This document shows, in pieces, positions 32,746 through 63,710 of a DNA stretch of 64,000 bases. The DNA is from Bacteroidetes bacterium HGW-Bacteroidetes-4. GTDB lineage: Bacteria; Bacteroidota; Bacteroidia; Bacteroidales; SZUA-534. Within the stretch, counting starts at the first letter, position 1, and each line of letters begins with the position of its first letter. The stretch spans positions 1 to 64,000 of the forward strand of contig PHDD01000013.1 in the NCBI GenBank assembly GCA_002840905.1, in the 5' to 3' direction. The position numbers and the translations under genes were made by a program. Below the pieces are notes generated by a model. It did no database searches. It was not told where the DNA came from and saw nothing but the letters and a program-made list of their open reading frames with translations.

Positions 32746-34566
32746 TTATGCGAATTCAGCTACAGAAACTGCTTTTTGCTTTTGGTGTACAGGCTTCACT
32801 ATCATTTGTTTTGCAACAAGTTCAGCAATATCGACTACTTTCACTGCTGAAACGGCTCCCAATGTTTTTTTGCACATGGGACAGGCAGTAGCAATTAGTT
32901 CTGGATTGTTATCAGTTAGCTTATGAACCGTAGTATGGGCTATATTTTGCTTATTATTTTCAGACAAGGATTGATTTGCCAAACTTCCTCCGCAACACAG
33001 GGAATTTTGCCCTGAGCTACCATTTTCAATTACATTTGATGCAAACTGAAGTGCATTTCTTGGTGCCTGATAAACGGCAGCCCCACGTCCCAACTCGCAG
33101 GGATCGTGGTAAACCACCGAAATCGTAGATTTTTTTACTTGAATTTTTTTAGACACCAACAACTCATTAATGTATTCGCTATGATGCAATACGCGCAAAG
33201 GCAGGCGGTAATCTTCTTTAAATATTTTATAGCAAATGGGACAAGAGGTAACTAAAGTATGGGCTCCGCTCTGCAAAATCATGTTCCGGTTCAGCGAAAC
33301 CAATTCTGAAGCTGCCTGAAACTGACCGGCCAGTTTCAATGGGCGACCACAGCAAGCCCCTTGTTCTTTATCCATAAACCAATAATTTTCGCCAGCCTGT
33401 TTAAAAATCTGCTCCATGGAATTTTTTATGGTTGGGGTTAAATGGGTCATGCAACCGGCAAAATAAATTACATCGGCGGTATTGGTTCGTTCGGACACAA
33501 AAGCAAATTGATCTTTTTTGTTTTCAGAAAAATCGGTTTTATGCATTAAGCGCAGTGCGGTTAAATCGATTCCAACCGGACAAACCGATTCGCAGCGCCC
33601 ACACAGCAAGCAATTCTCAGCCAATTCCCGGTAATTTTCGGCATTACGCACGCGCTGAATAAAATATACCGATTGACTTTTTGTAGTATTTTGCAGTTCG
33701 TTAAGTTGGCAGGTGTCGATACAAATACCACATTTAGGGCAAGAATAAATTTCAACTGCTTTTAAAACCGGATTATTCACTTTTAGCTTTAATCCCCAGT
33801 TTCGAAAAAAAATGAGCACCATTTCGGTTGGAATATGCATGTAGCGGGTAAAAGGCAATCCCACAAAAAACACTCCCAATGAAAGTGAATAAGCCCACCA
33901 AGCCGGGTAAATAAAGGGTTCTGTTGGAAACAAGTACTGAAAAACTGCACCAAGCGAACCAGTTAAAAAGCCACCCGAATTATGGTATCCCGAAGTTAAA
34001 CTCTCGGCCAATAATCGCAAGGGAAAAATGAGCCATAAAGCAGTAAGTACAAACTTATCGACCACTTTGAGTTTTGTTGTCTTTTTAAGCCCCACAGTTT
34101 TTGCATTGAAACGCTTAGCAAAAGCCATAAACAAACCCGATAACACAAATAACAAAAGTAAATCCATTAATTGTGCAAAACCCCAAGAGAAAAAGAAGTG
34201 GTGTTGATCAGGTACAAAGTAGCGAAAGAAAATTGGAAAATATAAGGGCGCTGATCCTTTTACAAAAATATGGGCCTCAATAGCTCCGACCACAATAAGT
34301 AAAAACCAGCCAAAAGCAAGGCTCATATGCATGTATCCCAGGCGGGGATTCACTTTAAAAATTTTTCGGTGGATTAATCCTTCTGCAACTATTTCACGAA
34401 GCGCAATAAGTGTTCGTCGGGTTAAGAGTCGATACCTAATCTTTTTTTTGTCTTGTGCATCTAACTGCCAAAACCAGGTTCCATACTTAACCAGTAAGTA
34501 ACCCAATAGCAAAAGCAATCCCAGGGTAAACGGAAGGACAAAAGGATCATAATACATGGCATTCAT
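32746..34566 (-). CDS. Membrane cytochrome b/FeS/double-CCG fusion (HdrE-HdrD/DsrMK-like)
   Basis: A 606-residue fusion. The N-terminal part (about 1-260) has five or more membrane helices with histidines (H80, H99, H122-123, H244) and resembles the HdrE/NarI/DsrM heme b subunit. Next is a double 4Fe-4S ferredoxin domain: C276-C279-C282-C286 and C319-C322-C325-C329. Two complete CCG domains follow: C372, C405-C406-G, C442xxC445 and C490, C524-C525-G, C562xxC565, as in HdrD/DsrK, whose CCG domains ligate noncubane 4Fe-4S clusters. It probably connects the membrane quinone pool to the cytosolic Hdr-like subunits encoded upstream. Its start overlaps the preceding gene by 20 bp. Substrate and direction of electron flow are unknown. 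Confidence 0.88.
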   Translation of the reverse strand: MNAMYYDPFVLPFTLGLLLLLGYLLVKYGTWFWQLDAQDKKKIRYRLLTRRTLIALREIVAEGLIHRKIFKVNPRLGYMHMSLAFGWFLLIVVGAIEAHIFVKGSAPLYFPIFFRYFVPDQHHFFFSWGFAQLMDLLLLFVLSGLFMAFAKRFNAKTVGLKKTTKLKVVDKFVLTALWLIFPLRLLAESLTSGYHNSGGFLTGSLGAVFQYLFPTEPFIYPAWWAYSLSLGVFFVGLPFTRYMHIPTEMVLIFFRNWGLKLKVNNPVLKAVEIYSCPKCGICIDTCQLNELQNTTKSQSVYFIQRVRNAENYRELAENCLLCGRCESVCPVGIDLTALRLMHKTDFSENKKDQFAFVSERTNTADVIYFAGCMTHLTPTIKNSMEQIFKQAGENYWFMDKEQGACCGRPLKLAGQFQAASELVSLNRNMILQSGAHTLVTSCPICYKIFKEDYRLPLRVLHHSEYINELLVSKKIQVKKSTISVVYHDPCELGRGAAVYQAPRNALQFASNVIENGSSGQNSLCCGGSLANQSLSENNKQNIAHTTVHKLTDNNPELIATACPMCKKTLGAVSAVKVVDIAELVAKQMIVKPVHQKQKAVSVAEFA

Positions 34567-34885
34567 CGTTTAATAAGGTTTCACGTGTTTTGAGTATCAA
34601 ATTTCTCAGATTCACCCCCCTGGGGCAAACCAGTGTGCATTTTCCACATAACATGCATTTTCCCAATTCCGATTTTAAATCGTCGTATTCGCCTCGTTGA
34701 AGCAATACATTCATACGCCTGATGTTAAATGGAGTAAGATTGCCTGCAGTGCAGGTTGCCGTGCAGGCTCCACAGGCGATACAGATACGAAGCGAGGGTT
34801 CGAGCGCTAAAATTTTATTCCTAATGGCCCGATTGTTTTTATCGTAATCTATTTGATTGGTTGTTATAATTTTATAACCCCACAT
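34547..34885 (-). CDS. HdrC-like double 4Fe-4S protein, short form
   Basis: A 112-residue cytosolic iron-sulfur protein with two cluster motifs, C35-C38-C41-C45 and C77-C80-C83-C87, the second ending CPRGV as in HdrC. It probably relays electrons between the HdrA-like flavoprotein (5 bp upstream) and the membrane fusion (overlapping by 20 bp downstream). Overlap and spacing indicate translational coupling. It is the second HdrC-type protein in this cluster. Confidence 0.88.
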   Translation of the reverse strand: MWGYKIITTNQIDYDKNNRAIRNKILALEPSLRICIACGACTATCTAGNLTPFNIRRMNVLLQRGEYDDLKSELGKCMLCGKCTLVCPRGVNLRNLILKTRETLLNDECHVL

Positions 34886-34890
34886 ACTAC

Positions 34891-35913
34891 TTAATTTGTT
34901 AAATACTCATGAATGCGTAATGCAGCTGCCCTTGCCTGCGAAATGGTGTCGGTAATATTCATTGGAGCCAAACAGGCTCCGGCCAAAAACACTCCGGGTG
35001 TATCGCTCAGCTGATTGTCGAAGTGATTGTCCTTGCTTTTAAAAAACCGGTTATCGCCTATTGCGAGTTTAAATTGCCGGGAAATGTGTTCGTTTCCCTC
35101 AGCCGGAACCATTCCTGCCATTAACACCAACAAATCGGTATTCATACGCAAAGGTTTCGATGCCAGGGTATCTTCCGCCTTAATTTGAAGCGATCCGTCC
35201 CTGGTTTGTGAAGCCTCAGATATTTTTCCCCGAATAAACACGATCCCCCATTTTTCCTGGGCCTCGCGGTACAGTTCTTCATAGTAAGGGCCAAACATGC
35301 GCATGTCCATATAAAAACAGAAAACTTCTGTTTCTGGCATGCGCTCTTTAAATTCAATGGATTGTTTTACAGCCGTTACACAACAAACTTTTGAACAGTA
35401 ATGATTATTGACCTTAGCATCGCGCGAACCCACACAATGCACAAAGGCAACGCGTTTAACGGGTTTTTTGAATTGAGCCGCCAAATTATCAGCCTGAAAT
35501 AGTTGCTCTAAATCACTATTCGTTATTACCTGATTGTAAATACCATAACCATATTCTTCTTTTTTGGCTGCATCAAACAATTCAAATCCAGTTGTAATGA
35601 GCACTGCATTGGCATTAATGACATTTTTTTCACTCAATACCAGTTCGTACCGGTAATCATTTTGTTTTACCTCGTGAACAGCGGTATTTACCATGACTTC
35701 AATGTTCGAATGATTTACTTCCTGTTTGAGTTTTTGCAATAATTCCTTGGCCGGACGCCGGTCGGGGAATAAATGGTGCCAGTTGTTTAAATGCCCTCCA
35801 GTCGATGCTTTTTTTTCGATAAGAACTACTTGGTGCCCCAGTTTTGCCAGACTGGCCGATGCTTCCATACCAGCAGGCCCTGCTCCTATTATTGCTATTG
35901 TTTTTGTTTGCAT
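34891..35913 (-). CDS. HdrA-like FAD/FeS oxidoreductase, minimal form
   Basis: A 340-residue flavoprotein. The Rossmann GAGPAG (10-15) binds FAD. The cysteines C160 (HCVGSRD), C173, C177 and C178 form the conserved HdrA/QmoA-type cluster site next to the flavin. Compared with full HdrA (about 650 residues or more) it lacks the N-terminal FeS insertion and the C-terminal ferredoxin domains, so it is a core-only form similar in size to QmoA or sHdrA. HdrA proteins can bifurcate electrons; whether this one does is unknown. It lies between hdrB- and hdrC-like genes with 4-5 bp gaps. Confidence 0.88.
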   Translation of the reverse strand: MQTKTIAIIGAGPAGMEASASLAKLGHQVVLIEKKASTGGHLNNWHHLFPDRRPAKELLQKLKQEVNHSNIEVMVNTAVHEVKQNDYRYELVLSEKNVINANAVLITTGFELFDAAKKEEYGYGIYNQVITNSDLEQLFQADNLAAQFKKPVKRVAFVHCVGSRDAKVNNHYCSKVCCVTAVKQSIEFKERMPETEVFCFYMDMRMFGPYYEELYREAQEKWGIVFIRGKISEASQTRDGSLQIKAEDTLASKPLRMNTDLLVLMAGMVPAEGNEHISRQFKLAIGDNRFFKSKDNHFDNQLSDTPGVFLAGACLAPMNITDTISQARAAALRIHEYLTN

Positions 35914-35917
35914 ATTT

Positions 35918-36979
35918 TTAAACCATCAGTTTTAAAGGTTTTTTGGGAAAAGAATTCGGCTGTTGTGTCTTGTATTTGTTGGGTTTGCTGTAATCGATTC
36001 CCATTTTGTCGAGTAAAGGTTCTACTGATACCTGATGCATTTGAAGACCCAGGTCCCAGGGATCATAACCCAGAACCAATCCGGCCATTTCTTCATAAGT
36101 TAAAACCGGAATTCCATAACCACCCTTCCCATAGGTTGTTCCCTCCATTTCGGCAATGGTATATTGCCATTTATCCATAAACATGCTACATCCCGGGCAA
36201 TTTGATACAATAAAATCGGGTTCGTAAGGTGCCATAGAATCAAATTTCTTTTTTGAGTTTGAAACCGAATAGCCTCGGTTAGCCATAACCAAATATTGCC
36301 GGAAACCAAAACCGCAACAATGGCGACGTTCCGGATAATCGATCACCTGGCCTCCCCAGGATTCAACCATACCGGTTAATACATAAGGAAATTCTGCTCC
36401 TCCAATACCTTTCTCGGGAAACAATTTGGCATAATGACAACCAATATGATCAACTACCTTTAATGGTTGTCCGGTTTTTGCATTTACCAATCTCCTTTTC
36501 GATTTATTGTTTATCTCTTCCCGGTTATGAAAGATAATATCGGAACTATGCGCCAGATTTTTGGGAATTGAAAACTCCCTGCGGGTTGCTTTCCAAAGCA
36601 GTTCGCGTATTTTTGCTTCCTCTTCAGGAAAATGTTTCCAGGTTTCCAACAATTCCGTATAAAGCCCAAACGAAGTAACGCAAGAAATTGCCAGATTCTC
36701 GTACCCCAATTCAGTCATTAATGCAAAATGACGGGCAATAACCGTTGCCGTAGTTTCCTGCGGTATAATGTCGGAATGATAAGCTATACCAGTGCAGGTA
36801 GTGTGGTGTGGATCGTCGTAAATATCTTTTTGCAATTCCTCTTGCAGAATTTTTAAAAATACTTTTTCCGATGCAGGAAAGAAATTTTGCCGTATGCAAC
36901 TGCGTGCGTAATAATAGTGATCATCGGCAATTTCTTTTTGATAGCTTTTCCAAAGTCTGGTGCTGTTCTTTGTTTCCAA
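35918..36979 (-). CDS. HdrB-like CCG protein with degenerate first site
   Basis: A 353-residue cytosolic protein with two CCG-type domains. The C-terminal one is complete: C181, C221-C222-G and C261xxC264, expected to hold a noncubane 4Fe-4S cluster. The N-terminal one is degraded: C28 is kept, but the CCG is T61-C62-T-G and the final CxxC is C100-VTS, so half the usual ligands are missing. In methanogen HdrB both domains carry a cluster and act on the disulfide; here one probably does not, implying a different substrate or asymmetry. It starts 5 bp after the upstream HdrC-like gene. Confidence 0.87.
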   Translation of the reverse strand: METKNSTRLWKSYQKEIADDHYYYARSCIRQNFFPASEKVFLKILQEELQKDIYDDPHHTTCTGIAYHSDIIPQETTATVIARHFALMTELGYENLAISCVTSFGLYTELLETWKHFPEEEAKIRELLWKATRREFSIPKNLAHSSDIIFHNREEINNKSKRRLVNAKTGQPLKVVDHIGCHYAKLFPEKGIGGAEFPYVLTGMVESWGGQVIDYPERRHCCGFGFRQYLVMANRGYSVSNSKKKFDSMAPYEPDFIVSNCPGCSMFMDKWQYTIAEMEGTTYGKGGYGIPVLTYEEMAGLVLGYDPWDLGLQMHQVSVEPLLDKMGIDYSKPNKYKTQQPNSFPKKPLKLMV

Positions 36980-36984
36980 AATAG

Positions 36985-37698
36985 TTAGTTGTTTTTATTG
37001 TGTTGATTAGAATTCTCACTATAAACTACATTGAAATATTCATTCGGTGTATCGTCGTTGAAATCCAGATTCATCAGTTTAGCCTTTTCCCTGGAAAAAT
37101 TTTCAATGGATTCATACATGGCAGTTCCTCCGGTAACATCAAAAATAGCTTGAAGTTCGTCTAAATCTTCCTGGGCAATTTTTCTTAAAGTTCCGGCACC
37201 GGGTTTATTGTAATTGGCTCCCAATCGGTCCATAATGCCCTCAGCATTGTCGACCACCCAGCGCCAAACCGGTCCCTGCTCAGGATGCAAATCCGGTGCA
37301 ACTCCCTGTGGATGGACGCAATACCCAAATTTCAGAATATTGTCGCCCACTGTACGTTTAATGGCAAATTGCTGGCGACCTTTTTCCGATTCCACAAAAT
37401 ACCCCAGATTAACCGACAGCTTACGTAAAGCCTGAATTACAAATCCGGGTGTATTTCCCCTTGGGCAGCGAGTTTTACACGACATACACTGACCACAATA
37501 CCATATGGTTTCTGATTTTAACAATTCAATTATGGATTCATCAGATTTTTGTTGCAATTGATTCAATAATTTTCGCGGATCGTAATCATAAAACTCGGCT
37601 GCCGGACAAATTGCCGTGCAAACACCGCAATTCATGCAGGTATGGTATCCTTCAACAAAACGAACATCACTTAACAGCAATTCAAATAGCGGCTTCAT
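36985..37698 (-). CDS. HdrC-like 4Fe-4S protein, first gene of the Hdr-like cluster
   Basis: A 237-residue cytosolic protein with two 4Fe-4S motifs, C21-C24-C27-C31 and C68-C71-C74-C78 (CPRGN), followed by about 150 residues of mostly helical sequence longer than in typical HdrC. It would pass electrons to the adjacent HdrB-like subunit. It heads a minus-strand operon HdrC-HdrB-HdrA-HdrC-membrane fusion with gaps of 4-5 bp. The downstream tail (WRWVVDNAEGIMDRLG) is not something I can assign. Confidence 0.88.
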   Translation of the reverse strand: MKPLFELLLSDVRFVEGYHTCMNCGVCTAICPAAEFYDYDPRKLLNQLQQKSDESIIELLKSETIWYCGQCMSCKTRCPRGNTPGFVIQALRKLSVNLGYFVESEKGRQQFAIKRTVGDNILKFGYCVHPQGVAPDLHPEQGPVWRWVVDNAEGIMDRLGANYNKPGAGTLRKIAQEDLDELQAIFDVTGGTAMYESIENFSREKAKLMNLDFNDDTPNEYFNVVYSENSNQHNKNN

Positions 37699-58558: not shown

Positions 58559-59131
58559 TTAAACCAAACCACTAAAGCCCATAAAAGCCATGGCTAAAAT
58601 ACCAGCAACAACCAATGCAATGGGCATACCTTTCATTCCTTTGGGCACATTCATTAAATCAACATGCTCACGAAGGCCGGCAAATATAATAAGTGCTAAT
58701 CCAAAACCCAGTGCTGAGGAAATGGCAAATACCACCCCTTCCATCAAATTGTAATCTTTTTGGATAGTCATTATGGCCACTCCCAGAATGGCACAGTTGG
58801 TAGTAATTAAAGGTAAAAAAACACCCAAGGCCTGATATAAAGCAGGACTAACTTTTTTAAGAATAATCTCGACCAATTGAACCAACGATGCAATCACCAA
58901 AATAAAGGTGATGGTTTGCATAAAACCAATGCCAAATTTATCGAGTACTGTTTTTTGTATCAGGTAAGTAACAATGGTGGCAATAACCATTACAAAAGTT
59001 ACGGCTCCAGCCATACCTGCCGCCGTTGAAATTTTCTTAGAAACCCCTAAAAACGGGCAAATACCCAAAAACTGACTAAGAACAATATTGTTAACAAAAA
59101 TAGCGGCGATTACTATAAACACATATTCCAT
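58559..59131 (-). CDS. rnfA: Rnf complex subunit RnfA
   Basis: A 190-residue integral membrane protein with six predicted helices, of the RnfA/NqrE family. Signature segments include [18 protein letters not shown] (with the conserved cysteine) and [12 protein letters not shown] (second conserved cysteine); in Rnf and Nqr the RnfA/RnfE pair holds an iron-sulfur centre between such cysteines within the membrane. It is the last gene of the operon. Confidence 0.96.
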
Positions 59132-59142
59132 ATTTCTTCCTC

Positions 59143-59727
59143 CTAAACTTTATTCAGTTTGTTAACCAGTAAAATAAGGTATCCCAAGGCAATAAAAGCT
59201 CCGGGAGCCAGAATAAATACCAGCATGCCATAATTAGAATCGAATAGCTGAAATCCGAAAACCATGCCTGAGCCAAAAAATTCACGAACAGCTCCCAATA
59301 TGGTTAAGGCCAGTGTAAAACCAAGGCCCATTCCCAGGCCATCAATTGCCGACGATAGCACATTGTTTTTTGAGGCAAATGCTTCGGCTCTTCCCAATAC
59401 AATACAGTTTACCACAATAAGCGGAATGAATAATCCCAGACTTTCAAACAGTGAAGGAAGATAGGCTTGCATGGTAAGTTCTACCACGGTAACAAACGAG
59501 GCTATGATTACAATAAAAGCAGGAATTCGCACCTTATCGGGAATTCCGTTTTTAACCAGTGAAACCACAATGTTGGCCATGACCAGCACAAAAGTAGTAG
59601 CTAAACCCATGCCCATTCCATTAACGGCAGTTGTAGTTACCCCAAGAGTTGGACACATCCCTAATAAAAGTACAAATACCGGATTCTCTTTTAATAATCC
59701 TTTGGTAAAATTCTTTATCTGATTCAT
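59143..59727 (-). CDS. rnfE: Rnf complex subunit RnfE
   Basis: A 194-residue membrane protein homologous to RnfA (NqrD type), with about six helices and the matching cysteine segments [12 protein letters not shown] and [14 protein letters not shown]. It pairs with RnfA in the ion-pumping core. The gene overlaps the rnfG stop codon by one base (translational coupling) and precedes rnfA by 11 bp. Confidence 0.96.
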
Positions 59728-60470
59728 TAGTTACCTCCTTTGTTTTGAGCCATTTCCTTAATTTCAGTATTAACAGCTGACGAGTCGGCTGGGTTGGCCT
59801 TATTTTCTATGGCTTCATTTTTTTTCATGTATCCATTGTAGGCGCGGCTTACTGCATCTAAGAATGCACGAGAACTAATTGTTGCAGCGGTAATAGCATC
59901 CACATCGCCACCGTCTTTACTAACGGTTAAATTCATTTGACTTGGATTTTTCCCTACAATAACTTTTCCATCGCCTCCTGAACCGGGTTTAATACCAAAC
60001 AGCCAATCAAAAAACGAGGCTTCTTTTGGTAGCGAATCGGTTACAAGTGCGGGTTTAAACCAGTCTGCCATTTTTGTTCCCAATCCAGGTGTTTCTTTGT
60101 GTTCCAGTACCTGATAATTGTAAATGGTTCCATCGGGGGTAAAACCGACCATAACCCGTATTAATCCGGAAAAACCCAAATTGGTATATGTTTTAACAGC
60201 AGCACCCACGAGTTGTCCGTTCATTTTTGCCGGATAAACTTCCAATGCTTCACCTCCTTCAACCTCAATTAAAAACATTTCGGCATTCGGATCATTGTCA
60301 AATGCAGGAACAACTTCTTTTATTGCACTTATTTTCTTATTCACCTGAGCGTCTTCAATCGGTTTTTTTGTCGACTCATAAACAAATCCCAGGGTGGCCG
60401 ATGCTACCAGCGATACAATAAGTAATGCCAGTACCATATTTATAAATGTTGATTCTTTTTTACTTGCCAT
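59727..60470 (-). CDS. rnfG: Rnf complex flavoprotein subunit RnfG
   Basis: A 247-residue protein with one N-terminal membrane helix (about 10-30) and a periplasmic FMN-binding domain. The HKETPGLGTK motif and the flavinylation site DAITAATISS (191-200, FMN expected on T197) are present. The latter has TAAT in place of the more usual SGAT. The C-terminal tail (MKKNEAIENKAN...) is charged and long. It overlaps rnfD by 11 bp and rnfE by 1 bp. Confidence 0.95.
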   Translation of the reverse strand: MASKKESTFINMVLALLIVSLVASATLGFVYESTKKPIEDAQVNKKISAIKEVVPAFDNDPNAEMFLIEVEGGEALEVYPAKMNGQLVGAAVKTYTNLGFSGLIRVMVGFTPDGTIYNYQVLEHKETPGLGTKMADWFKPALVTDSLPKEASFFDWLFGIKPGSGGDGKVIVGKNPSQMNLTVSKDGGDVDAITAATISSRAFLDAVSRAYNGYMKKNEAIENKANPADSSAVNTEIKEMAQNKGGN

Positions 60471-61461
60471 TTTTTACCTCCTCTCCAAAGCGTTTAGGTT
60501 TTATGTAGCGGTTAATAATGGGAACAAATGCATTCATTATCAGAATAGCAAAGGAGATACCCTCGGGATAAGCACCAAAAATCCGGATTAATACGGTTAT
60601 TATTCCTATTCCAATAGCAAAAACAGCCATCCCTTTCGGGTTCATGGGCGAAGTAACCATATCGGTAGCCATAAAAATAGCTCCCAGCATTACACCCCCC
60701 GTAAGAATATGGAAAAGGGGATCAGCAAATTTTTCAGGGTTTGTCAGGTTTAAAATTCCTGTAAAAGCAAATATGGTTCCAATTAAAAAAACGGGTATAT
60801 GCCAGGTAATTATTTTTCGGTAAAGCATAAAGGCAAAACCCAGTAGCAAGGCTATTGCACTAACTTCACCCATACTTCCGCCCATGTGACCGTAAAACAG
60901 TTCCATGTGCTGCGGTATTCCAATCATTTCGCTTATTTTTTCACCATTTCCAACGCCTTCTTTTACCAAAGCCAGGGGAGTAGCACCGGTAATTGCATCG
61001 GCATATCCGGTAGCGAATCCCTTAGGTACAGGCCAACTGGTCATCTGAACCGGGAATGAAATCAATAAAAAAACACGTCCAACCAAAGCCGGGTTAAATG
61101 GGTTCTGTCCCAAACCACCAAACGATAATTTACCAATGCCAATAGATACCAAGGCTCCAATAATGATAATACCTATCGGCAAATTACTGGGAACGTTAAA
61201 AGCCAACAACAATCCGGTTAAGATGGCTGAACCGTCGCTTATTTTTGGCGTGGTTTTTAAAATAAACTTCTGAATCAGGTATTCAAAAGCTACACAACTT
61301 ATAATGGCTGTAAGGGTAACAATTAGGGCTCCCATTCCAAAATAGTAAATGGAAGTAGCAAAAGCGGGCAATAAGGCCAGGATTACCCCAAACATTATTT
61401 TTTTTACAGAATACTCGCCGGCTATATGGGGCGAGGGTGCTACATGTAGTAATCTATCCAT
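60460..61461 (-). CDS. rnfD: Rnf complex flavoprotein subunit RnfD
   Basis: A 333-residue inner-membrane protein with about 8-10 helices (RnfD/NqrB family). The covalent FMN site is T161 in DAITGATPLALVK. GLGQNPFNPALVGRVF and DMVTSPMNPKG are family signatures. It conducts electrons and, with RnfA/E, couples to Na+ or H+ export. Gap to rnfC is 16 bp. Confidence 0.96.
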   Translation of the reverse strand: MDRLLHVAPSPHIAGEYSVKKIMFGVILALLPAFATSIYYFGMGALIVTLTAIISCVAFEYLIQKFILKTTPKISDGSAILTGLLLAFNVPSNLPIGIIIIGALVSIGIGKLSFGGLGQNPFNPALVGRVFLLISFPVQMTSWPVPKGFATGYADAITGATPLALVKEGVGNGEKISEMIGIPQHMELFYGHMGGSMGEVSAIALLLGFAFMLYRKIITWHIPVFLIGTIFAFTGILNLTNPEKFADPLFHILTGGVMLGAIFMATDMVTSPMNPKGMAVFAIGIGIITVLIRIFGAYPEGISFAILIMNAFVPIINRYIKPKRFGEEVKNGK

Positions 61462-61477
61462 GTTAATGCTATTATGG

Positions 61478-62809
61478 TTATTGTTTACGAGTTCTGATGA
61501 TGTTACCCACAGTCGATTTTCCTAAACGGATGTAATCGAGCAGCGGACGGTCGGCCGGACAGGTGTACATGCACGAACCACATTCGATGCAATCCATGGT
61601 ACGTTCGTGTTCGGCCTCTTCCCACATTTTTTTATCGGAATAAGTCATAAGCAGGTAGGGTTCTAAACCCATGGGACAAACCGATACACATTTTCCACAG
61701 CGTATGCAGGGTTCAACAGGTCGCCTGCCGGCTTCGGCATCCTGAAAAAGCAAAACGCCTGACGATCCTTTTGCAATGGGAACATCTAACGATTTTAAGG
61801 CTTTTCCCATCATGGGACCACCACTTACTATTTTACCGGTATCTTCGGGAACACCGCCGGCAGCTTCAATCAACTGGCTGGTTGGGGTTCCGATGCGTAC
61901 TAAAAAATTAGAAGGATTTTTTACTGATTTTCCGGTAACGGTTACCACGCGCTCAAACAAAGGTTTGTTTTTTTGCACCGCTTCGTAAACGGCAAAAGCA
62001 GTTCCCACATTATGCACAACGGCACCTACATCAATGGGTAAAGCTCCCGAGGGAACCTCGCGGTTAATAACTGCTTTAATCAGTTGTTTTTCACCACCCT
62101 GTGGGTATTTCACTTTTAAAGGAACAATGTCAATTCCATCATAAGCCGCTGCGATATCTCTTAAATGGCCGATTGCATCGGGTTTGTTATTTTCGATGCC
62201 CACATAAGCTTTGGTAACGCCCAAAGCCATCATCAGCAATTTGGTTCCAATAAGCACTTCTTCACCTTTTTCAAGCATTAAGCGGTGGTCGGCGGTAAGG
62301 TAAGGCTCACACTCAACCCCGTTAATTAAAAGTACTTCGGCCTTTTTCCCCGGAGGGACAGAAAGTTTGATGTGCGAGGGAAAAGTTGCTCCACCAAGCC
62401 CAACAATTCCTGCTTCCTGAACTTTTTTAATTATCTCTTCAGGAGTTGCTTTTATTTCTTTAACAATTTCCGGTGAACGATCAATGATATCAATCCATTC
62501 GTCGCCATCGACTGTAATATGAACCGCCTGACGCGAAAAACCGCTGGCATCCATAGCATTATCAATCTTTAGTACTTTTCCGGAAACGGAAGCGTGAATA
62601 TTTGCCGAAACAAACCCACTGCTTTGTGCAATCAGTTGCCCTACTTTAACCTCGTCGCCTTTTTGTACCAATGGGCTTGCAGGTGCTCCAATATGCTGTC
62701 CCATAGGAATAATGGCCACTTTAGGTAATTCGGCGGTAACAATAGGAGCATGGGCCGATAACTTATTCTCAGCCGGATGAACACCACCTTTTTTAAATGT
62801 TTTTAACAT
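61478..62809 (-). CDS. rnfC: Rnf complex NADH-site subunit RnfC
   Basis: A 443-residue peripheral membrane protein. It has the RnfC N-terminal barrel-sandwich (HIGAPASPLVQKGDEVKVGQ), an NAD/FMN-binding region (GLGGATFPSHIKLS..., INGVECEPYLTADHRLM) and two 4Fe-4S motifs near the C-terminus (CIRCGKCVSVCP and CIECGSCMYTCP). It is the site of NADH/NAD+ chemistry. Length is compact, as in Bacteroidota and Clostridia, without the long repeat tail of proteobacterial RnfC. Confidence 0.96.
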   Translation of the reverse strand: MLKTFKKGGVHPAENKLSAHAPIVTAELPKVAIIPMGQHIGAPASPLVQKGDEVKVGQLIAQSSGFVSANIHASVSGKVLKIDNAMDASGFSRQAVHITVDGDEWIDIIDRSPEIVKEIKATPEEIIKKVQEAGIVGLGGATFPSHIKLSVPPGKKAEVLLINGVECEPYLTADHRLMLEKGEEVLIGTKLLMMALGVTKAYVGIENNKPDAIGHLRDIAAAYDGIDIVPLKVKYPQGGEKQLIKAVINREVPSGALPIDVGAVVHNVGTAFAVYEAVQKNKPLFERVVTVTGKSVKNPSNFLVRIGTPTSQLIEAAGGVPEDTGKIVSGGPMMGKALKSLDVPIAKGSSGVLLFQDAEAGRRPVEPCIRCGKCVSVCPMGLEPYLLMTYSDKKMWEEAEHERTMDCIECGSCMYTCPADRPLLDYIRLGKSTVGNIIRTRKQ

Positions 62810-62828
62810 AGAATCTCCTATTTATAGA

Positions 62829-63710
62829 TTATGCATTCTTTTCTTCAGCTTTTGCTCCACCGGTAATGTCTGCAACATTTGCCGGCTTACGTGGAGGAAA
62901 ATTAATCTCATGAATGGCATTGGTCGGACAAACCTCAACACATTTGCGACACAATTTACACTTATTGTAATCGATATATGCCAGGTTGTTTGCCATGGTA
63001 ATGGCTTCGAACGGACAAACATTAAAACATTTGCTGCATCCAATGCAAGCCACTTCGCACGATTTTTTTGCCACTCCCCCTTTGTCTTTATTCACACACG
63101 AGACAAAAATACGCCTGCTCTTTTTCCCAACGTTTCTAAGTTCAATAATGTCTTTTGGACAGGCTTTAACACAAGCACCACAGGCTACGCAATTCTCCTC
63201 AATAATTACAGGCAAGCCGGTAACCGGATCCATATACATGGCGTCGAATTTACAGACAGCCACACAATCGCCTTCACCCAGGCAACCATAACTGCAACCG
63301 GTATCGCCCGAGTACAAAGCTGCTGAAATAGCGCACGAACCGGCTCCATCGTAGTGATTTACTTTGGGGCGAAACTCACAGGTTCCGTTACAGCGAACAA
63401 CCGCTACCTGAGGTTCGGTAATATTTGCTGTATGTCCAAGGTAAGTAGCAATTGCTGTCATGCCGGTAGCATCAGAAACAGGACAATTCAGGTTTGAAAT
63501 ATCGTCGGCTTTAACCATGGCTTCAGCAAAACCCCGGCAACCCGGAAATCCACAACCACCGCAGTTTGCCCCCGGAAGCATGCCTTCCACTTCGTCGATG
63601 CGGGGATCTTCAATTACTTTGAATTTTTGCGCCACAAAATAAAGAATAATAGCGGCAGCTACTCCCAAAGCACTTAATGAAAGAATGGTATAAATAACTG
63701 TAATGCTCAT
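62829..63710 (-). CDS. rnfB: Rnf complex ferredoxin-site subunit RnfB
   Basis: A 293-residue protein with an N-terminal membrane anchor (about 5-27), the RnfB 4Fe-4S domain C50-C53-C58-C76 (GANCGGCGFPGCRGFAEA) and several ferredoxin-type motifs (CVACGACVKACP, CIGCSKCFNVCP, CKLCRKCVEVCP). It accepts electrons from reduced ferredoxin. It is the second gene of the operon as visible here, 12 bp after the RseC-family gene. Confidence 0.96.
   Translation of the reverse strand: MSITVIYTILSLSALGVAAAIILYFVAQKFKVIEDPRIDEVEGMLPGANCGGCGFPGCRGFAEAMVKADDISNLNCPVSDATGMTAIATYLGHTANITEPQVAVVRCNGTCEFRPKVNHYDGAGSCAISAALYSGDTGCSYGCLGEGDCVAVCKFDAMYMDPVTGLPVIIEENCVACGACVKACPKDIIELRNVGKKSRRIFVSCVNKDKGGVAKKSCEVACIGCSKCFNVCPFEAITMANNLAYIDYNKCKLCRKCVEVCPTNAIHEINFPPRKPANVADITGGAKAEEKNA

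Follow-up and report, generated by a model that had tools for sequence, protein, structure and literature searches.

We report that a five-gene operon for heterodisulfide reductase (Hdr)-like proteins, carried by Bacteroidetes bacterium HGW-Bacteroidetes-4, is linked to sulfonolipid synthesis in Bacteroidales, a link that is fairly well supported. The operon lies in a 64,000-nt stretch of DNA (the window; contig PHDD01000013.1 of assembly GCA_002840905.1, positions 1-64,000), where an initial annotation had described it as partnerless and had suggested an unknown thiol/disulfide or ferredoxin partner. That description needs revision: sulfonolipid genes recur beside the operon in 10 of 105 related loci, and 75 of the 77 genomes that carry its membrane protein also carry sulfonolipid genes. 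As for function, we give about even chances to an sHdr-like complex, anchored in the membrane, in which sulfane sulfur is oxidised to sulfite, menaquinone is reduced and sulfonolipid synthesis is supplied.

The five genes, designated C1, B, A, C2 and M, are arranged as follows.

36985..37698, minus strand: C1, HdrC-like protein of 237 aa with two 4Fe-4S sites, first gene of the operon (Fer4_8 match)
35918..36979, minus strand: B, HdrB-like protein of 353 aa with a TTG start, best conserved of the five (CCG match)
34891..35913, minus strand: A, short HdrA-like flavoprotein of 340 aa without ferredoxin domains (FAD/NAD Rossmann fold)
34547..34885, minus strand: C2, second small HdrC-like protein, 112 aa, with two 4Fe-4S sites (Fer4_9 match)
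32746..34566, minus strand: M, membrane fusion of 606 aa joining a NarI-like cytochrome b, two 4Fe-4S sites and two CCG domains (Fer4 match, CCG match twice)

Gaps of 5 bp (C1-B), 4 bp (B-A) and 5 bp (A-C2) and a 20-bp overlap (C2-M) couple the genes tightly, and of 105 related Bacteroidota loci, four of them repeats, 93 show the order C1-B-A-C2-M that the initial annotation had pointed out. Two loci read C1-C2-M-B-A, and contig edges truncate some of the 12 in which the order is incomplete. The synteny sample takes in 70 of the 77 M-positive (M+) genomes, the others being the window's own and six with a fragmentary M; the sole B copy lies on a different contig from M in four genomes (G511, G414 and G296, of one family, and G384). 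Because the same order recurs so widely, and because the cysteines that bind clusters reach a conservation of 1.00 across 86-98 relatives, the five-gene operon is real, and more than a chance arrangement.

Sulfonolipid genes recur near the operon

Passages of two papers outline the pathway concerned: cysteate synthase eliminates phosphate from phosphoserine and then adds sulfite (PMC12713407), and SulA condenses cysteate with acyl-ACP (PMC9304779). Sulfonolipid-type genes lie no more than five open reading frames (ORFs) from the operon in 10 of the 105 loci. SulA is within that distance in six of them (L090, L139, L140, L142, L146 and L158), where a rough model of 3,000 genes, which leaves relatedness out of account, predicts about 0.3. 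A cysteate synthase scoring above the TIGR03844 cut-off is found near the operon in L090, L145 and L159, a threonine-synthase-like gene (T) in L139, L142, L146 and L158, and a VOC-family gene in L090, L142, L151 and L154. Gene order runs SulA-T-C1-B-A-C2-M in L158; AMP-ligase, VOC, SulA, SDR, operon and cysteate synthase in L090; and operon, cysteate synthase and SulP-type permease in L145, whose genome has no CysD. Linked loci of several families show operon-like spacing with the cysteate synthase, SulA or VOC genes.

For the SulA neighbour, 7u7h scores 614 bits; its deposition names a 7-keto-8-aminopelargonate synthetase-like enzyme, and it is presumably the SulA of A. finegoldii. The cysteate-C-fatty acyltransferase 28eh scores 535 bits. 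All 11 aligned copies, that of the window's genome among them, have Lys281, the residue that separates SulA from serine palmitoyltransferase in the account given in PMC9304779, its place being counted from the PLP lysine. In three further genomes (G356, G460 and G398) the SulA cluster contains T and a transporter along with VOC, CysH, CysD and CysN; NCBIfam assigned the CysH genes of L215 and the window's genome, and CysN, CysQ and the CysH genes of L216 and L217 were named by eye. CysD is absent from 8 of the 9 sample genomes with a linked operon, compared with 18 of the 63 other genomes having both M and SulA (M+SulA+), some of which were not examined for linkage. The operon sits in some lineages where sulfate-to-sulfite genes sit in others; the simplest account is an sHdr-like complex, anchored in the membrane, that would supply sulfite anaerobically and pass electrons to menaquinone.

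The operon and SulA co-occur across Bacteroidales

Among 296 Bacteroidota genomes, full-length M was found in the window's own only, the next best match scoring 109 bits over the CCG part. Across 247 Bacteroidales genomes M is present in 77, from 63 of 174 genera, with Salinivirgaceae, Butyricimonas, Odoribacter, Sanguibacteroides and rumen Bacteroidales metagenome-assembled genomes among the named carriers. Presence was called at E<=1e-60 for M and CysD, 1e-110 for SulA, 1e-50 for TIGR03844, 1e-90 for T and 1e-12 for EtfA, which gives totals of 174 genomes with SulA, 66 with TIGR03844, 47 with T, 162 with CysD and 223 with EtfA.

SulA occurs in 72 of 77 M+ genomes and in 102 of 170 M-negative (M-) ones (odds ratio 9.6, p=1.2e-8); any of SulA, TIGR03844 and T occurs in 75/77 and 110/170, respectively (p=1.3e-9). 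Re-examination of the five M+ genomes scored as SulA-negative revealed a SulA split over two contigs in G448, a partial copy in G520 and distant homologues only in G317, G450 and G458, and the two M+ genomes outside the 75 have a split or partial SulA; this inspection covered M+ genomes and no M- SulA-negative genome, and the uncorrected 75/77 is used here. T and TIGR03844 co-occur in none of the 247 genomes (about 12.6 expected), and 72 SulA genomes are without both, suggesting that these may reach cysteate by a third route.

Within the SulA genomes, M and CysD are negatively associated, weakly so unless a cysteate synthase is also required. CysD is present in 46 and absent from 26 of those with M, against 83 and 19 of those without it (odds ratio 0.41, p=0.013), and when a cysteate synthase is also required (n=102) the counts become 19/19 and 54/10 (odds ratio 0.19, p=5e-4). 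Restricting the sets to genomes >=90% complete and <=5% contaminated gives odds ratios of 0.31 (155 SulA genomes, p=0.0028) and 0.14 (95 genomes with SulA and a cysteate synthase, p=1.2e-4), and with one genome per family the latter requirement gives a median p of 0.033 (57 families). When CysD is split by eye at a gap between 441 and 485 bits, M is, over all 247 genomes, negatively associated with the higher-scoring group (5/40, odds ratio 0.27, p=0.005) and weakly positively with the lower-scoring one (odds ratio 1.84, p=0.04). Both CysD and Sat are absent from 26 M+SulA+ genomes, and Sat, considered as a hidden sulfate-activation route, was found neither in the 45 SulA genomes without CysD nor in the window's genome. 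EtfA has no match in at least four M+ genomes, two of which (G324 and G471) are 99-100% complete; being near-universal (223/247), it is no positive marker. Profiling of this kind had been proposed in the initial annotation and was run for sulfur genes and EtfA: it ties M to SulA, but neither LbpA nor TusA proves to be required.

Conserved ligands and predicted folds suggest that M is quinone-linked

The Pfam and NCBIfam matches of the five ORFs are HdrC-, HdrB-, HdrA- and HdrD-like and fall far below the curated cut-offs for methanogen Hdr, QmoC and DsrK, C1 scoring 95 bits against HdrC models, below cut-off. Conservation, counted after removal of the four repeat loci and of any sequence with stops or an odd length, is 1.00 for C21, C24, C27, C31, C68, C71, C74 and C78 of C1 (86 relatives), for all eight cluster cysteines of C2 (98 relatives), for C160, C173, C177 and C178 of A (97 relatives), and for H66, H80, H244 and all 18 cluster cysteines of M (94 relatives), the last comprising eight for 4Fe-4S and two complete CCG motifs. 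B, which matches solved HdrB relatives at E 2.6e-28, is predicted to carry one complete noncubane-cluster motif (C181, C221, C222, C261 and C264) and not two: its N-terminal CCG motif is degenerate, with C28, C62 and C100 kept and Ser103 in place of the HdrB bridging cysteine (93 relatives). A aligns over its whole length with 6tjr, which we take to be a Hyphomicrobium sHdr subunit (residues 4-333, 203 bits, E 6.1e-59), and mainly over residues 98-333 with methanogen HdrA (202 bits), a protein of 643-671 aa compared with the 340 aa of A.

An AlphaFold2 model of M reached a pLDDT of 90.6 and the model of B 82.7, their alignments using 37 of 79 and 37 of 43 non-redundant sequences, respectively. 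The fold nearest to M is the menaquinone-reducing EtfD (9ojn; Z 24.5, 563 aligned, rmsd 5.3), to which the sequence match is restricted to the CCG part. The cytochrome part of M has no Pfam match, and the first part of the model aligns with NarI (Z 9.2, 173 residues, rmsd 5.3). Since the nearest fold reduces menaquinone and the cytochrome part is NarI-like, M appears to be quinone-linked, in keeping with what the initial annotation had suggested. Its domain assignments (4Fe-4S pairs in C1 and C2, CCG in B, an FAD/NAD fold in A, and cytochrome, FeS and two CCG domains in M) were likewise borne out.

A candidate anaerobic sulfite source and its alternatives

In the mechanism that we favour, B, acting with A and C1, would take sulfane sulfur from a carrier and oxidise it to sulfite with water as the oxygen source, while electrons would leave A (FAD, 4Fe-4S) by way of C1/C2, cross the clusters of M and reach heme b and menaquinone. 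From sulfite and phosphoserine, cysteate synthase would then form cysteate, and SulA would join cysteate to a fatty acid to start sulfonolipid (capnine) synthesis, such that the complex would serve as an anaerobic sulfite source replacing or supplementing the CysDN/CysH route from sulfate. Sulfite release is described in PMC12423496 for sHdr, which is the nearest relative to have been characterised, and Odoribacter splanchnicus, according to PMC5591296, produces sulfonolipids in pure culture; Odoribacter contigs carry the operon. We infer the chemistry, the substrate, the direction of the electrons, the menaquinone acceptor and the formation of a complex by the Hdr-like proteins; the association of the operon with SulA is correlational, is affected by phylogenetic non-independence and does not tell which way the electrons flow. 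A more specific claim, to which we give slightly less than even odds, is that the operon encodes a dedicated menaquinone-reducing, LbpA-free sulfite synthase that lets gut and sediment Bacteroidales make sulfonolipids without oxygen or sulfate assimilation, so that a biosynthetic step would feed electrons into respiration.

In the window's genome, SulA lies on contig C17 (79457-80722), 42 kb from the operon and beyond the window, with Lys281 kept; T is on contig C7 and CysH-CysD-CysN on contig C1. This genome has no TIGR03844 match, and its T, a putative cysteate synthase, scores below both curated cut-offs. Here the complex would supply sulfite alongside another source.

Several observations weigh against the sulfite-source reading. 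Taken by itself, TIGR03844 shows no significant association with M (p=0.06), T in general scores below both curated cut-offs and is a putative cysteate synthase, and 34 of the 72 M+SulA+ genomes have neither recognised cysteate synthase. SulA occurs without M in 102 genomes, and in 19 without both M and cysD, so other sulfite sources must exist; conversely, cysD is carried by 46 of the 72 M+SulA+ genomes, the window's included. Over all 247 genomes M and CysD are not associated (odds ratio 1.04), and their mutual exclusion is visible only when conditioned on SulA and is weak across all SulA genomes. The genomes are related, so that the association tests are not independent; one SulA genome per family gives a median p of 0.084 (94 families), and within-family discordant pairs of M and cysD divide into 5 opposite and 3 same. 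Nor did either sulfur carrier that was considered turn out to be required. TusA is absent from 10 of the 14 M+ genomes tested, and for LbpA, two M+ genomes (G313 and G522) have no GCV_H match at E<=1e-5; a GCV_H match is present in 12 of the 14, in a search that does not distinguish LbpA from GcvH.

Four other explanations can be set against these data. That there is no functional link, the operon and SulA being co-inherited by descent and adjacent by accident in a few lineages, is fairly unlikely; linkage in 10 of 105 loci from few families and the weak family-level tests speak for it, but it accounts poorly for six loci with SulA near the operon where about 0.3 are expected (relatedness ignored), for operon-like spacing with cysteate synthase, SulA or VOC in several families, and for the absence of any comparable association between M and cysD in the same genomes (odds ratio 1.04). 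We regard as unlikely that M serves as an EMR/EtfD-like menaquinone route for EtfAB or another dehydrogenase, or that the operon forms a general thiol or peroxide defence complex. EtfD is the nearest fold of M (Z 24.5), and type II sHdr clusters are described as carrying etfAB (PMC11582611), but M retains catalytic cysteines that EtfD has lost (PMC13083937), and EtfA is missing from at least four M+ genomes and is present in 223 of 247 anyway. For a defence role one may cite the rubrerythrin genes near the operon in L070, L072, L074, L092 and L127 and the OsmC gene in L139, although defence-type neighbours are limited to a few loci.

HdrDE reduces a disulfide with a membrane hydroquinone, and M is composed like HdrE/HdrD, both of its CCG motifs being complete; the complex might run in reverse, menaquinol electrons splitting thiosulfate, S-sulfocysteine or another S-sulfonate to release sulfite for cysteate, and all of the sulfonolipid-gene linkage would fit equally well. 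Menaquinol is a weak reductant for thiosulfate, however, so that this direction would need a proton gradient, and the A-B-C1 part resembles the oxidative sHdr; we consider it decidedly unlikely. Highly improbable is a Qmo-like role in which menaquinol electrons drive a CysH-type adenylylsulfate (APS) reductase that makes sulfite from sulfate. The occurrence of CysH-CysD-CysN in sulfonolipid clusters and in the window's genome would suit it, as would the weak enrichment of M with lower-scoring cysD (odds ratio 1.84, p=0.04), but 26 of 72 M+SulA+ genomes are without both CysD and Sat, and therefore without APS, and sulfonolipid-linked operons are mostly found in genomes without CysD (8/9).

Surroundings of the operon

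In the window, one flank of the operon holds an aminotransferase and an arabinose operon, the other a methyltransferase and an ABC ATPase (named by eye); no Rfam family reached its gathering score in the window and no tRNA gene was found there. The same window holds an Rnf-type operon on the minus strand (58559-63710, ORFs read by eye). Clustering of 867 neighbouring ORFs from 103 loci returned no gene family common to most loci, the largest cluster covering 22 loci with mixed regulators and sensors, as judged by eye. Relatives therefore show a recurring but not universal neighbourhood and not the consistently adjoining, known partner set that the initial annotation had named as the finding that would overturn its view.

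A sensor-kinase and response-regulator pair (named by eye), which may regulate the operon, lies directly upstream in L080, L100, L108, L116, L131, L138 and L155, and a similar pair is on the other strand in L118, where a PHO4-family transporter also adjoins the operon (as it does, by similarity, in L117). Butyricimonas-type loci have a rubrerythrin-family gene nearby, upstream on the other strand in L070, L072, L074 (where Pfam backs the assignment) and L092 and downstream in L127; an OsmC gene is near the operon in L139. In three loci from rumen Salinivirgaceae (L063, L064 and L067) a lipoprotein-like gene of about 410-425 aa stands between A and C2. Elsewhere in the window's genome (G000:C26:29652-32861; L255 and L257), two unusual proteins contain GcvH domains, one of them having a PBP-like domain as well, and surround an FeS/NrfD-like pair and a sensor-kinase-like gene; a similar arrangement exists in G505:C49.

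Implications

Sulfonolipid synthesis requires sulfite, for which the operon, if our favoured reading is true, would be an anaerobic source. sHdr-type complexes are otherwise known from sulfur oxidisers; an assimilatory role would then be added for this type of complex, together with a genetic handle on sulfonolipid production. PMC11211663 connects gut bacterial sulfonolipids with inflammation and immune signalling, and peak areas put capnine lipids at 24-33% of relative lipid abundance in a Marinifilaceae strain, a facultative anaerobe described in PMC12927429. The passages concerned in these two papers, and those in PMC9304779 and PMC5591296, make no mention of sulfite.

In the open-licence literature, sulfonolipids or capnine and heterodisulfide reductase appear together only in a study of Black Sea anaerobes (PMC11129491), passages of which propose that a 'heterodisulfide reductase system' alleviates sulfide toxicity and report that some strains make capnine lipids. 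If the sulfite-source reading is true, it may give a function to that system, which may be the same operon. Hdr was not found together with Bacteroidales gene clusters in the same literature, which does not prove that no report exists, and Hdr is not mentioned among the matches listed for Odoribacter and Butyricimonas.

Comparison with known Hdr-type systems

QmoABC and DsrMKJOP join Hdr-type modules to a quinone-reactive cytochrome b, and the operon appears to have this arrangement as well. It differs from Qmo in that C1 and C2 score 46 and 29 of the 300 bits required for QmoC, with no AprAB adjacent in the window, and from DsrMKJOP in that M scores 55 of 400 bits for DsrK, with no Dsr gene or further subunits adjacent there. 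In contrast to methanogen HdrABC, A is short and without ferredoxin domains and B has one degenerate CCG motif. M shares with HdrDE and EtfD/EMR a cytochrome b, a 4Fe-4S pair and two CCG domains, yet unlike either it is encoded together with an HdrABC-like core. Whereas EtfD has replaced catalytic CCG ligands (PMC13083937), M retains all of its CCG cysteines, and ETF is not its obligate donor, as EtfA is missing from M+ genomes G324 and G471. The view of the initial annotation that the operon matches no named Hdr context exactly is upheld.

The closest resemblance is to sHdr. The order C1-B1-A followed by a second C/B-type module is the same, A is a short protein with an FAD fold, one 4Fe-4S motif, no ferredoxin domains and a full-length match to 6tjr, and the motif type of B recurs in an Acidithiobacillus plasmid homologue. 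The N-terminal signature of B is shared with that A. ferrooxidans plasmid gene, which lies about 2 kb from an annotated glycine cleavage H protein, and with a plasmid cluster of Picosynechococcus sp. PCC 7003 (L235). The latter has the order C1-B1-A-C2-B2 (identity 49% for C1, 40% for B and 43% for A) but differs in having a separate soluble B2 and an FAD oxidoreductase in place of the cytochrome fusion; the FAD gene is weakly SQR-like (83 bits against a cut-off of 525), the record of the cluster describes no function, and no annotated lipoate-binding protein lies within the 25 kb shown.

As set out in PMC11582611, type I sHdr is recognised by shdrC1-B1-A-H-C2-B2 in one syntenic cluster and type II by shdrC1-B1-A-H-B3 with etfAB in one such cluster. 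Compared with type I, the operon (C1-B-A-C2-M) has no H gene between A and C2, and M replaces B2; compared with type II, no etfAB adjoins the window operon, and EtfA is missing from some M+ genomes. The lipoate-binding protein LbpA is tied to the sHdr complex in PMC6067878, whereas two M+ genomes carry the operon without a GCV_H match, and the operon belongs to anaerobic Bacteroidales, near biosynthetic and not dissimilatory sulfur genes. Without the H gene, the etfAB linkage and a need for LbpA, the complex stands outside sHdr proper, and we describe it as sHdr-like by architecture and by its proposed chemistry.

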